Below are positions 25,820 through 29,742 of a DNA stretch of 64,000 nt, piece by piece. Position numbers and translations under genes: made by a program. Positions within the stretch are counted from its first letter, which is position 1. The number at the start of each line of letters is the position of its first letter. The stretch covers positions 124,001 to 188,000 of the forward strand of contig JABTUV010000002.1 in the NCBI GenBank assembly GCA_015075175.1, in the 5' to 3' direction. The notes beneath the pieces were generated by a model. The model was not told the origin of the DNA, searched no databases, and saw nothing but the letters and a program-made list of their open reading frames with translations. The DNA is from a bacterium (GTDB lineage Bacteria; Hinthialibacterota; Hinthialibacteria; H5-UNCL2).

Positions 25820-26460
25820 CGCGCGACCTAGCGACCTGGAGGTCGCCGTTGCAGAGGAATAGCGGCGGCGGCGACGATTGTCGCCGGTCTCGAGACGATC
25901 CGTCCGGCGGCTGGTGCGCGCCGCACGAGCAGGATGCCGACGTCGACCGGCGGCCTGGAGGTCGCCGTTGCGCGTGCAACCCGTAGCGGACTCTGCCGTC
26001 GCCGGTCTCGGGACGTCCGTCCCCGGCGGAGATCGAAGCCTGTGTCGGCAGGATGCCAACGTCTTGACCGGCTACAGCCTGGAGGTCGCCGTTGCGGGGA
26101 ATAGCGTTGGCGGCGACATGTTGTCGCCGGTCTCGGGGACGTCCCGTCCCCGGGGGTGGGCTGACTTGTGTCGGCCGGATGCCGACACGACCGGCGACCT
26201 GGAGGTCGCCGTTACGGGGGAATAGCGCCGCGGCGGCTCCCCGCTGGCCGGTCTCGGGACCATCCCGTAAACCCCGGCGGTGCGCGCAGTTATGTCCGGC
26301 GGGATGCCAAAACGACCGGCGGCCTGGAGGTCCGTAGAAACCAGTCGAAACCTAGCGGCGATAAAGTGTCGCCGGTCTCAGGTGATTCTCGTCCGCCCCG
26401 GCGGACCCGCGACATGTGTCGGCGGGATGCCGACGACCGGCGACCTGGGTCGCCGTGCGT
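25820..26460. repeat. Tandem array of RAYT-linked palindromic units, about 120-bp period
   Basis: The core CCTGGAGGTCGCCGTT starts at 25835, 25953, 26079, 26198, 26323 and 26444 (spacing 118-126). Each unit carries CGACCTGGAGGTCG, GCGACATGTTGTCGC, GGGACGTCCC and GTGTCGGCAGGATGCCGACAC type palindromes with unit-to-unit drift. It lies between the transposase remnant and moeB, whose last codons run into it. Confidence 0.85.
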
Positions 26461-27268
26461 TCCGCGCATGGTTTATCGTCCGGCGCCGATAGTCGAACGG
26501 CGCCAGGATGCTGGGATGCTCGCCGCAGACCTCGCACTCGGCGTTCTTGGGAATCCGTACCCGCCGGAACTCCATCGTCAGAAGATCCACCGTCAGCAGA
26601 TACCCGGCCAACGTCTCGCCGATGCCCAGAATCAGCTTGAGCACCTCCGTCGCCTGCAGCGTCCCGATCACGCCGGCGATCGCGCCCAGCACCCCCGCCT
26701 CCTGGCAGCTGGGAACGAAGCCGGGCGGCGGCGGCTCGGGAAACAGGCAGCGGTAGCACGGCCCCCGGCCGGGCAGGATGGTCGTCAATTGGCCCTCGAA
26801 CCTGAGAATCCCGCCGTGGACCAGCGGCTTGCCCGACAACACGCAGGCGTCGTTGATGAGAAACCGCGCCGGAAAGTTGTCCGTCCCATCGACCACAATG
26901 TCGTAGTCGGCGATCACGGAAAGTACGTTTTGGGACGTGAGACGTTGCCGATGCGGGACGACTCGGACGTCGGGATTGAGGGCCGAGAGTTTTTCGCCCG
27001 CCGACTGGACCTTGGGCCGCCCCACGTCGGGGGTATGATGAAGAATTTGGCGCTGCAGGTTGGAGAGATCGACGGCGTCGCTGTCCACGATGCCCAGCGT
27101 ACCCACGCCGGCGGCGGCCAGATAGTAGGCGACGGGGCAGCCCAGCCCGCCCGCTCCGATCACCAAGACGCGCGCGGCGGCGATCTTTTCCTGCCCCTTG
27201 CCGCCGACTTCCTTGAGAATGATGTGGCGACTGTAACGCTCGATCTGTTCGTCGGTGAATTCAATCAT
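26378..27268 (-). CDS. Sulfur-carrier adenylyltransferase, MoeB/ThiF/MoeZ family
   Basis: 296 residues, E1-like. It adenylates the C-terminal Gly of a ubiquitin-fold sulfur carrier. Nucleotide loop GAGGLG (39-44), DGTDN (128-132), zinc Cys pairs CYRC (171-174) and CEVC (245-248), and the Cys loop PSCQEAGVLG (Cys188) are present. There is no C-terminal rhodanese domain, unlike MoeZ. The last 40 residues run into the repeat array and may not be native. The cysO-like carrier lies just upstream in the same operon, so it is the probable substrate. Confidence 0.9.
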   Translation of the reverse strand: MIEFTDEQIERYSRHIILKEVGGKGQEKIAAARVLVIGAGGLGCPVAYYLAAAGVGTLGIVDSDAVDLSNLQRQILHHTPDVGRPKVQSAGEKLSALNPDVRVVPHRQRLTSQNVLSVIADYDIVVDGTDNFPARFLINDACVLSGKPLVHGGILRFEGQLTTILPGRGPCYRCLFPEPPPPGFVPSCQEAGVLGAIAGVIGTLQATEVLKLILGIGETLAGYLLTVDLLTMEFRRVRIPKNAECEVCGEHPSILAPFDYRRRTINHARNARRPRSPVVGIPPTHVAGPPGRTRIT

Positions 27269-27282
27269 GCTCCCGTGCCTGC

Positions 27283-27376
27283 CGGGAAAAATAGGGTCAG
27301 CGTCTATTTATACAGTCGGTCCTATGCTATACGGAGGAACTCTCGGCACAAATAGGCGCTGACCCCATTTTTCCCG
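27283..27376. repeat. 27-bp inverted repeat inside the sulfur operon
   Basis: Arms 27283-27309 and 27350-27376 match at 25 of 27 positions (AAATAGGGTCAGCG against CGCTGACCCCATTT), with a 40-bp centre. The AAATAGGCGCTGACCCC motif is familiar to me from sequences beside Y1 transposases. The element fills the gap between moeB and the cysO-like gene. Confidence 0.8.
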
Positions 27377-27378
27377 CT

Positions 27379-27654
27379 TCAACCTCCCGCCACGGCGGGC
27401 ACGATGGAGACCTCGTCGCCGTCCTTGATGGGCGTGGTCTCGCCGGACAGGAAGCGGATGTCCTCCTGATTCACGTACACGTTCAGGAAGCGCCGCAACC
27501 GGCCCGTCTCATCATACACCCGCTGGCGGAAGCCGGGGAAGCGGTTATCCAGGTCGGCCAGGAGTTCGGCGATGGTACCGCCGTCGGCCTCAACCTCGAG
27601 TCGGTTGCCGGCGACGGCCTGCAGCGGAGCGGGTATGCGCACGGTGATGCTCAT
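27379..27654 (-). CDS. CysO-like ubiquitin-fold sulfur carrier (ThiS/MoaD superfamily)
   Basis: 91 residues, beta-grasp. It ends in the required Gly-Gly (IVPAVAGG), the site of adenylation and thiocarboxylation. From memory the whole C-terminal half (RRFLNVYVNQEDIRF, IKDGDEVSIVPAVAGG) resembles mycobacterial CysO much more than ThiS (about 66 residues) or MoaD. CysO donates sulfur to O-phosphoserine bound by CysM. Here the PLP neighbour is instead a threonine synthase homologue, whose substrate is O-phosphohomoserine. GTTGAAAC precedes the ATG and no strong RBS is seen. Confidence 0.85.
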   Translation of the reverse strand: MSITVRIPAPLQAVAGNRLEVEADGGTIAELLADLDNRFPGFRQRVYDETGRLRRFLNVYVNQEDIRFLSGETTPIKDGDEVSIVPAVAGG

Positions 27655-27704
27655 GTTTCAACAAGGCCTCCAACCAAGGGAAAATGCACGCGAGAGAACA
27701 GGAA

Positions 27705-27747
27705 GCGGGGCCGGAAACCTCTCCCCCACACGTAGTTCCGGCCCCGC
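27705..27747. repeat. 12-bp inverted repeat between thrC and cysO-like gene
   Basis: GCGGGGCCGGAA (27705-27716) and TTCCGGCCCCGC (27736-27747), with a 19-base loop. In the operon mRNA this would be a stable hairpin in the 131-base gap, and may set relative expression or protect the mRNA. There is no T-run. Confidence 0.6.
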
Positions 27748-27785
27748 CTCTGCCGGGTTCCGCCGGGTCGCGGCGGTCCCATGTC

Positions 27786-29051
27786 CTAGGCCGCGATGGC
27801 CTCCTTCTGCAACTCCTGCCAGGCGGCCTCGAAGTGTTCGACGCGCGCCTCCACGCGGACGGGCTGCGCCAGCGCCCCGTCCAGCGCCGCCTGGGTCTTC
27901 AGTCCATTGCCGGTAACGGCGACCACGATGGACTCGTGGCGCGGGATCACGCCCGACTCGCTGAGACGAACGGCGCCCGCCAGCGTCGCGCCGCCGGCGG
28001 TTTCCGCAAAGATGCCCTCGGTCTCCGCCAACAGCTTGATGGCGCCGATGATCTCCTCATCGGGAACCGCCACGGCGCTGCCGCCCGTAGCCTTCAGACT
28101 TTCCAGCACGGTGTAGCCGTCGGCCGGATCGCCGATGGCCAGCGACTTGGCGATGGTATTCGGCTTCTGGGGCACGATGCGGTCGCGGCGGTGGAGGAAG
28201 GCGTCGACCACGGGGCAGCAGCCTTCCGGCTGGGCGGCGTGGATGCGCGGCAACTCCCCTTCGACCAGTCCCACCTTGACGAACTCGTCGAAGCCGCGAT
28301 GCACGCGGGGCAGAAGCGTCCCGCCCGCCACCGGCAGGACGACGTGCCTGGGAAAGCGCCAACCCAGCTGCTCGGCGATCTCGAAGGCCATGGTCTTGGC
28401 GCCCTCGGCGTAGTAAGGGCGCAGATTGACGTTGGCGATGCCCCAACTGGGGTGCCGCGCGGTCAACTCGGCGCACAACCGATTGACCGCGTCGTAGTTG
28501 CCCTTCACGGCGACCACGGTCGGGCCGTACACGAGCGAGTTGACGATCTTGGCCGCTTCCAGGTTGTCGGGAATGAAAACGATGCAGGGCAGGCCGGCCT
28601 GCGCGGCGTGGGCGGCGACGGAGTTGGCGAGGTTTCCCGTTGAGGCGCAGGCGAAGAGTTCCAGGCCCGTTTCCAGCGCGCGCGAGATGGCGACCGGCAC
28701 GACGCGGTCCTTGTAACTGAGGGTGGGCGCATTGACCGCGTCGTTCTTGATATACAGCTCGGAAACGCCCAATCGCTCCGCCAGCCGTCGCGCGCGCACC
28801 AGCGGGGTGAAGCCGTTGCTCTGGCCGACCTGCGGCAGGCCGGTGAGGGGCAGGAGCTCGCGATAGCGCCAGATGTTCTGCGGGCGCGAGTAGATGAGCC
28901 CGCGCGACAGGTAGCGACGGATGGCGCCGTAGTTGTAGCGCGGTTCCAGCCGTCCGAAGCAATGCTCGCAGACGGTCAGGTTCTCCAACGGATAATTCCG
29001 GCCGCAGTCGCGGCAGGCCAGGCCCTGCACGTGGTGAATATAACTGCTCAT
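27786..29051 (-). CDS. thrC: Threonine synthase family PLP enzyme (possible homocysteine synthase)
   Basis: 421 residues from ATG 29051; the in-frame extension to 29105 overlaps the upstream gene. An N-terminal zinc ribbon (CRDC 13-16, CEHC 28-31) is followed by fold-type II PLP domain: SNGFTPLVRARRLAERLG, PLP Lys114 in TLSYKDRVVPVA, ASTGNLANSVAAHAA, phosphate loop VLPVAGGTLLPR, ETAGGATLAGAV, VTGNGLK. This is canonical for class with zinc ribbon. Standard reaction: O-phosphohomoserine to threonine. Its operon (TusA-like, CysO-like, MoeB) and a SAM-I riboswitch argue that it may instead, or also, take sulfur to make homocysteine. Confidence 0.88.
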   Translation of the reverse strand: MSSYIHHVQGLACRDCGRNYPLENLTVCEHCFGRLEPRYNYGAIRRYLSRGLIYSRPQNIWRYRELLPLTGLPQVGQSNGFTPLVRARRLAERLGVSELYIKNDAVNAPTLSYKDRVVPVAISRALETGLELFACASTGNLANSVAAHAAQAGLPCIVFIPDNLEAAKIVNSLVYGPTVVAVKGNYDAVNRLCAELTARHPSWGIANVNLRPYYAEGAKTMAFEIAEQLGWRFPRHVVLPVAGGTLLPRVHRGFDEFVKVGLVEGELPRIHAAQPEGCCPVVDAFLHRRDRIVPQKPNTIAKSLAIGDPADGYTVLESLKATGGSAVAVPDEEIIGAIKLLAETEGIFAETAGGATLAGAVRLSESGVIPRHESIVVAVTGNGLKTQAALDGALAQPVRVEARVEHFEAAWQELQKEAIAA

Positions 29052-29299
29052 GCGTCCGGCCCCCTTTCGATCAGGAGCCGGAAAACGCCGTCCTCCGGCT
29101 CGCACGCCAGCACGCGGTGGCCGTCGCCGGTGATGCTGCGGGGCACGTTGCGGATGGGCGCGCCGGGATCAATGAAAATCTCCAGCACCTCGCCCGGAGC
29201 CATGCGCTCCAGCCGCAACTTGGTCTTCACGTAATTCATGGGACAGGCGACGCCTCGCAGGTTGAGCGAGGCCTTGGCACAGACGGTCGGTGTGGTCAT
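29048..29299 (-). CDS. TusA-family sulfurtransferase
   Basis: 83 residues from ATG 29299, preceded by AAAGGAG. The hallmark LNLRGVACPMNYVKTKL carries the CPxx motif with persulfide-bearing Cys19. It then has the compact alpha/beta fold ending VFRLLIERGPDA. TusA proteins relay persulfide sulfur to acceptor enzymes. The stop overlaps the thrC ATG (ATGA), so the two are translationally coupled. It is the first gene after the SAM-I riboswitch, and would feed sulfur into the CysO-like carrier or directly to the PLP enzyme. Confidence 0.88.
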   Translation of the reverse strand: MTTPTVCAKASLNLRGVACPMNYVKTKLRLERMAPGEVLEIFIDPGAPIRNVPRSITGDGHRVLACEPEDGVFRLLIERGPDA

Positions 29300-29347
29300 A
29301 AGCCACTCCTTTCGGGGTGTTACGGCCACGTGCTCTGCCGAGTCGAA

Positions 29348-29381
29348 AAACAAAAACCCCAACTCGGCGAGAGCTGGGGTC
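29348..29381 (-). terminator. Riboswitch terminator
   Basis: Nine-base-pair stem CCCCAGCTC / GAGTTGGGG (29381-29373, 29367-29359) with a five-base loop, followed on the minus strand by TTTTTGTTTTT (29358-29348). Confidence 0.9.
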
Positions 29382-29670
29382 CTTCGAGTCAGCAAATATG
29401 CTGGTCCCTGAGCTTCCCCGCTCTCTCATCTCCCGGAAGTTACACGCCCGTCGAGTAGCCGGGCGATCGGAACTTCGGCGCCTGTTGGGGGTGGGGCAGA
29501 CATTCCTGCCTGCCGTTTCCCTCCCAAGCCGAGACGCGCCGTACTGGTTTAACGCGCCTCCCGAAGCCCCCCTCCGTTGGATTTGGCACCGGACGATCAA
29601 TACGAGGGTTGCGTACGATCCGGTTGCCGTGGTTTCACAGGGCCAGTCCCTCCACCACTCTAGATAAGAG
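29348..29670 (-). promoter_or_regulatory. SAM-I (S-box) riboswitch with transcription attenuator
   Basis: Minus-strand RNA from 29670: P1 5' strand CTCTTATC (29670-29663), then AGAGTGGTGGAGGGACTGGC, CCTGTGAAACCACGGCAACC, P3 CCGGA...TCCGG closing on GTGCCAAATCC, and 3' core GGGAGATGAGAG near 29424-29435, which pairs with P1. These are the S-box consensus blocks. P4 is greatly extended (about 140 nt instead of about 20-30). The platform: antiterminator GAGAGCGGGG (29427-29418) pairs with CCCCAGCTCTC (29381-29371), which otherwise forms the terminator. SAM binding to P1 hides the antiterminator, so high SAM turns off the tusA-thrC-cysO-moeB operon. Confidence 0.92.
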
Positions 29671-29714
29671 CTACGTGGTAGTCCCCGACGGATCGGGGAC
29701 CTATGTTGGGGCGA

Positions 29715-29742
29715 ATAATAATGGGAAAATGGGCCGTGTCAA
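29715..29742 (-). promoter_or_regulatory. Promoter of the SAM-regulated operon
   Basis: Minus strand TTGACA (29742-29737), 16-bp spacer, TATTAT (29720-29715, five of six). Transcription would begin near 29708. A GTCCCCGA/TCGGGGAC hairpin (29681-29700) comes before the aptamer. Confidence 0.7.

Follow-up and report, generated by a model that had tools for sequence, protein, structure and literature searches.

One operon on the minus strand of the window, the whole 64,000-nucleotide stretch of DNA that was analysed, consists of a promoter, a SAM-I riboswitch and a terminator-like hairpin, followed by tusA, the gene of a threonine-synthase-like fold-type II PLP enzyme given the working name ThrCx, a sulfur carrier gene and moeB. 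Its features are:

29715 to 29742, minus strand: sigma-70-like promoter TTGACA-16-TATTAT (11/12 consensus matches; shuffles give a mean of 0.1)
29551 to 29670, minus strand: full SAM-I riboswitch aptamer, RF00162 (61.1 bits, gathering threshold 44.4, E 1e-11)
29352 to 29384, minus strand: terminator-like hairpin with U tail, a probable attenuator, placed between aptamer and tusA
29048 to 29299, minus strand: tusA-like sulfurtransferase, 83 aa, CPMN motif (PF01206, 70.6 bits)
27786 to 29051, minus strand: ThrCx, 421 aa, with an N-terminal CxxC...CxxC (PF00291, 227 bits; TIGR00260, 276 bits)
27379 to 27654, minus strand: CysO/MoaD-like sulfur carrier, MetO-like, 91 aa, ending AVAGG (PF02597, 73 bits)
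26378 to 27268, minus strand: MoeB/ThiF-type E1 adenylyltransferase without a rhodanese domain (PF00899, 297 bits)

The promoter and the full S-box aptamer proposed in a first-pass annotation of this DNA were both recovered. The aptamer clears the gathering cut-off of its covariance model and is the only SAM-I match in the whole genome. The attenuator proposed there corresponds to the hairpin and U tail at 29384-29352; such hairpins are expected by chance 0.7 times in this stretch, so that by count alone it is not above chance, and it is credible because of its position between the aptamer and the first gene. The leader fold has a z of -4.4. The tusA-like reading of the first gene holds at the level of the domain match, but the cysteine motif is CPMN, not CPxP. 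The ThrCx start overlaps the tusA stop as ATGA, and domain matches bear out this coupled thrC-type gene as well as the 91-residue carrier ending in GG and moeB. The C-terminal tail of moeB past the ThiF domain extends into an intergenic repeat array.

The plainest reading of the operon is an ordinary threonine synthase that SAM regulates at the point where the threonine and methionine branches part, the sulfur genes being mere neighbors. With 276 bits ThrCx exceeds the 167-bit cut-off of the TIGR00260 threonine synthase model, and the nearest folds to its AlphaFold model (pLDDT 90.5, fold-type II) are threonine synthases (Z 39.6-48.8), first among them the plant enzyme complexed with SAM, all of which speaks for this reading. 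With ordinary ThrC (PDB 1uim, 6cgq, 2zsj) ThrCx shares the fold, the PLP-lysine motif and probably the substrate; identity to bacterial ThrC structures is 33-37%, and a sequence search found no solved structure within the ThrCx clade. Unlike ordinary ThrC, however, ThrCx stands in a sulfur-transfer context and, in comparison with 11 ordinary ThrC proteins, has ~33 sites at which each group carries a different, nearly invariant residue, which argues against the plain reading. The ordinary signature is not found in ThrCx: SFKDRGM at the PLP lysine is S[FY]KDRVV, the serine/threonine loop STGNTSAS is STGNLANS, the PLP-phosphate loop GNAGN is of A[GS]GSL type, and the HRLEG-type Arg is replaced by Y214, while R211 is newly invariant and C278 stands where ordinary ThrC has Ala. 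In the PDB 1uim alignment the lost arginine falls on Arg160 of Thermus ThrC, which we take to be a ligand of the substrate phosphate.

ThrCx-like proteins of 61 genomes separate clearly by identity, one group lying at 49-59% and the other at ~40% or less, and a tree of 85 sequences, made by a quick method, places all 65 ThrCx proteins including that of the window on one branch with support of 100, apart from ordinary ThrC; the window branch is rather long within the clade (0.95). The Microcystis enzyme (L144, M. novacekii), with a carrier gene adjoining, lies inside the clade, and by clade membership ThrCx is a probable orthologue of MetM, placed via this enzyme rather than via the S. albulus sequence.

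MetM is known from a Streptomyces methionine route via O-phosphohomoserine, described by Hasebe, Adachi, Maruyama, Hamano (2024, Appl Environ Microbiol 90:e01247-24, PMID 39311576). As related in PMC12172450, MetM is a homocysteine synthase that uses O-phosphohomoserine as its substrate, and S. albulus metM has a SAM riboswitch upstream. S. albulus metO resembles the sulfur-carrier gene beside Microcystis thrC, the M. aeruginosa ThrC is 51.6% identical to MetM and its neighboring gene product 47% identical to MetO, and homologues occur in cyanobacteria (PMC12172450). The "possible new homocysteine route" of the first-pass annotation is thus not new, to judge from the 2024 Streptomyces work (Hasebe et al. 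2024, as cited in PMC12172450). The window operon has in common with S. albulus MetM/MetO a ThrC-like enzyme, a neighboring carrier gene and a SAM riboswitch upstream, this last being a feature of S. albulus that is not universal; it differs in including TusA and a rhodanese-less E1 in the same operon and in its distant lineage.

The source genome (5.0 Mb) is 84% complete, and because of this single gene absences are weak evidence. It gives no match to MetX (E 1e-50), MetA or DUF39/HcyBio. Two divergent PF01053 proteins are encoded on contigs other than that of the operon; racemase and methionine gamma-lyase models fit them best, all the curated cut-offs shown are missed, and among the models shown those of MetB, MetC, MetY and MetZ have cut-offs far above their scores. 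The search for conventional genes that had been proposed as a check thus turned up no MetX, MetA or DUF39 match and two PF01053 enzymes below the MetB/MetC/MetY/MetZ cut-offs. A PF02574 methyltransferase is present.

The proposed check for a second thrC did find one, although it is split. This ordinary thrC adjoins a homoserine dehydrogenase gene and is interrupted by a XamI-type restriction endonuclease gene followed by an N6-adenine methyltransferase-like gene (so read from an NPPY motif found by eye; no NCBIfam match), the insertion being bordered by a ~327-bp duplication of thrC that is 96% identical. ThrCx may be the only intact thrC-family member in the source genome, and because the ordinary thrC is split, the window ThrCx might have to make threonine. 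The split gene lends weight to the ordinary threonine synthase reading and also to a bifunctional enzyme that would make both threonine and homocysteine from O-phosphohomoserine, with carrier loading setting the balance. Both readings can also draw on the Microcystis orthologue, which makes threonine in vitro: a 2025 paper reports that it acts as threonine synthase and as threonine deaminase, and did not establish that it forms homocysteine (PMC12172450). Among published findings, these activities weigh most heavily against an exclusive role in homocysteine synthesis (PMC12172450). Nevertheless, if SAM repressed the sole threonine synthase, the cell would run short of threonine whenever methionine is abundant, and a distinct thrC-family gene is retained in nearly all relatives, so that the bifunctional enzyme is considered unlikely.

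The wider distribution bears on the same question. A sample of 386 genomes drawn from across the bacterial families yielded ThrCx in 68, among them Cyanobacteria, Omnitrophota, Nitrospirae, Acidobacteria, Binatota, Deltaproteobacteria and Phycisphaerales MAGs, as well as the actinomycete Nonomuraea. A plasmid search matched one unannotated actinomycete replicon. The same 386 genomes contain MetX in 106 cases, DUF39 in 75 and MetA in 19; any of the three occurs in 17/68 ThrCx genomes versus 176/318 others (odds ratio 0.27, p 3.7e-6, uncorrected for phylogeny). This anti-correlation agrees with the earlier suggestion that the operon replaces known methionine routes, although the 17 ThrCx genomes that retain a known homocysteine route count against it. 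MetX, MetA and DUF39 are all lacking in 51/68 ThrCx genomes, a PF01053 enzyme is absent from 46/68 (E 1e-40) and present in 13/14 control genomes, and 39/68 have none of the three and no PF01053 (MetB/C/Y/Z-type) enzyme. Thirty-two of those 39 genomes encode an S-methyltransferase belonging to PF02574, a family with homocysteine methyltransferases among its members, and in these 32 ThrCx is the sole visible candidate for homocysteine formation. At least one further thrC-family match occurs in 66/68 ThrCx genomes. From this second gene and the distribution it follows that methionine and threonine are probably served by separate enzymes.

In the gene neighborhoods a carrier homologue lies no more than 6 kb from ThrCx, and on its strand, in 98/109 loci, versus 0/4 control ThrC loci; MoeB accompanies 29 and TusA 14 of the 109. 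Of the 38 ThrCx loci scanned, 16 have a SAM-I riboswitch upstream in the same orientation and 2 more have SAM-II, an unrelated class, which makes 18/38 together. A SAM riboswitch lies upstream of the Nonomuraea locus (L183), and none was found at the cyanobacterial loci L144 and L148 among the loci scanned. It had been asked whether the same operon stands behind S-boxes elsewhere, and the cluster does recur behind SAM riboswitches in several phyla. On a Nitrospirae contig (L165) the row reads TusA, MoeB, JAB, ThrCx, carrier, NIL and ordinary thrC, and continues with genes for a proposed homoserine kinase (TIGR02535), an aspartokinase-like protein and a cysteine-synthase-like protein; on another contig (L137) metK is near ThrCx. 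NIL domains, in some cases fused to the carrier, occur in 36 loci; in the transporter ATPase MetN, NIL is the domain that binds methionine.

Against an ordinary threonine synthase, then, stand the other thrC-family match in 66/68 ThrCx genomes, directly adjoining in L165, the recurrence of carrier, E1 and TusA across phyla, and the anti-correlation of ThrCx with other homocysteine routes. A plain threonine synthase was rejected on the second thrC elsewhere, the context and the signature residues, and we regard it as highly improbable.

Two other thiocarboxylate systems invite comparison. The M. tuberculosis CysO/CysM/Mec+ route shares with the operon a carrier ending GG, an E1 and a fold-type II PLP enzyme, and by the same carrier/E1 logic ThrCx could make cysteine from O-phosphoserine and the thiocarboxylate; the occurrence of cysK-like genes in 30 ThrCx neighborhoods is in keeping with this. 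However, the M. tuberculosis route needs a JAB protease, and the 84%-complete window genome shows no match to one (PF14464). ThrCx scores very weakly with the cysM and cysK models (35.7 and 37.1 bits vs cut-offs 394 and 351), on which cysteine synthase was rejected, the genome has its own strong cysteine synthase that clears the cysK cut-off, and the SAM riboswitches indicate methionine, so that a cysteine-forming system is extremely improbable. Cysteate synthase was likewise rejected (TIGR03844, 84 bits vs cut-off 325). The Wolinella succinogenes protein-thiocarboxylate route would share with the operon a carrier thiocarboxylate as homocysteine sulfur donor (PMC5764234), and E1 and SirA/TusA-type helpers are common to both (PMC1779556), but it uses MetY, an O-acetylhomoserine sulfhydrylase of fold-type I, whereas the window uses a ThrC relative. 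A MetY route of the Wolinella type was rejected for the source genome, in which no MetX was found and the PF01053 genes are unlinked and far under the OAH sulfhydrylase cut-off.

The preferred reading is that the operon very probably encodes a MetM/MetO-type pathway producing homocysteine from O-phosphohomoserine. The direct basis for it is gene content and order, regulatory signals, clade, conserved context and complementary distribution. The genome checks, the clade and the reported S. albulus MetM/MetO chemistry favor the homocysteine route from O-phosphohomoserine and carrier that the first-pass annotation had predicted. By analogy the window ThrCx likely catalyzes the same reaction as S. 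albulus MetM. MoeB would adenylate the C-terminal GG of the carrier, and TusA, in place of the absent rhodanese domain, would hand over sulfur to give the carrier thiocarboxylate. Hasebe and co-workers are said to have found that thiocarboxylated MetO gives its sulfur to MetM. ThrCx would carry out gamma-elimination of the O-phosphohomoserine phosphate, the carrier sulfur being added at C-gamma in place of water at C-beta, and homocysteine would be released and then methylated to methionine. SAM formed from methionine would close the operon via the SAM-I riboswitch and terminator.

The supply of sulfur and the release of product appear to be modular. The pairing of TusA with a rhodanese-less E1 in the window fits the rule of Iyer et al. 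2006 for one class of sulfur-assimilation operon, in which E1 is always without a rhodanese domain and a SirA (TusA-type) protein, the predicted rhodanese replacement, is always present (PMC1779556). As a rule for the whole ThrCx clade it was rejected, since 22 rhodanese-less E1 genes have no TusA nearby. A JAB protease lies near 3/61 carriers ending exactly in GG and near 19/37 extended carriers (odds ratio 20, p 1.5e-7 for all loci; 4.8, p 0.03 with cyanobacteria excluded). In the CysO system an adduct arises between product and carrier. The window carrier has a GG end, and no JAB match was found in its genome.

The window operon is a newly found and well-equipped member of the MetM/MetO type with a TusA and rhodanese-less E1 supply module, and it is not a new pathway because MetM/MetO has already been described in Streptomyces. 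The present analysis adds the breadth of the pathway, its complementary distribution, its use of two riboswitch classes, a set of signature residues, and the variation among its modules (TusA, E1, NIL and JAB). Tentatively, and with somewhat less than even confidence, MetM/MetO may be a widespread route, present in about one-sixth of the sampled genomes, that takes the place of the acyl-homoserine and DUF39 routes across many phyla, with modular variants absent from the literature searched: a TusA-fed form with rhodanese-less E1, fusions of carrier and NIL that may act as methionine sensors, and extended carriers with JAB as against GG-ended carriers without it. If so, there would be two different ways of carrier maturation or homocysteine release.

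Many bacteria, mostly uncultured, look methionine-deficient, being without metA, metX, metB, metY and DUF39, and a MetM/MetO-type operon probably fills this apparent gap. The pathway is easily overlooked because general models of threonine synthase and MoaD/MoeB pick up its genes. Price et al. 2018 held that at least one homocysteine pathway was still to be found, naming Aquifex, Pyrolobus and Acidimicrobium (PMC5764234); the 2024 MetM report and the distribution in 386 genomes indicate that MetM/MetO is one such missing pathway. Pathway-prediction tools should consequently include MetM/MetO, with the fixed residue differences serving as an annotation rule.

The ordinary threonine synthase gene (thrC) of the source genome is interrupted by about 3.1 kb of other DNA, at a locus (L065) that lies outside the window:

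L065:8264-12457 (G000 contig C34, about 40.3-44.4 kb): split ordinary thrC

The interrupting segment carries a XamI-type restriction endonuclease gene (domain match to PF09572, 337 bits) together with a methyltransferase-like gene, and is bordered on both sides by a 327-bp duplication of thrC whose copies are 96% identical. The interruption looks like a restriction-modification insertion with a long target duplication. Another PALP gene of this genome, dehydratase-like and about 74 kb from the operon, is seemingly broken across several frames:

G000 C12:225442-226306 (L014, L017): dehydratase-like PALP gene

Within the window, GC-rich repeats with a 46-nt core and 119-125 bp spacing directly follow moeB, the last gene of the operon, and overlap its C-terminal codons:

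25825-26440: array of five imperfect repeats

Elsewhere, a single genome (G270) holds two diverged copies of ThrCx, the threonine-synthase-like enzyme of the operon (L171 and L172; 47% and 43% identity to the window ThrCx), and the second copy may have a different role. In one ThrCx cluster the sulfur carrier is confirmed to be fused to a NIL domain:

L128:8275-8790: carrier-NIL fusion

Carrier tails suggest the same fusion in the clusters of L052, L055, L057, L058, L109, L118, L174 and L182. No description of a carrier-NIL fusion was found in the literature searched; the fused domain may allow the carrier to sense methionine. Two further ThrCx clusters are preceded by SAM-II riboswitches (RF00521), in L168 with a panB-like gene intervening:

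L173:3749-3822: SAM-II riboswitch
L168:5502-5575: SAM-II riboswitch

These belong to an unrelated riboswitch class and represent convergent control of the same ThrCx-cluster genes.
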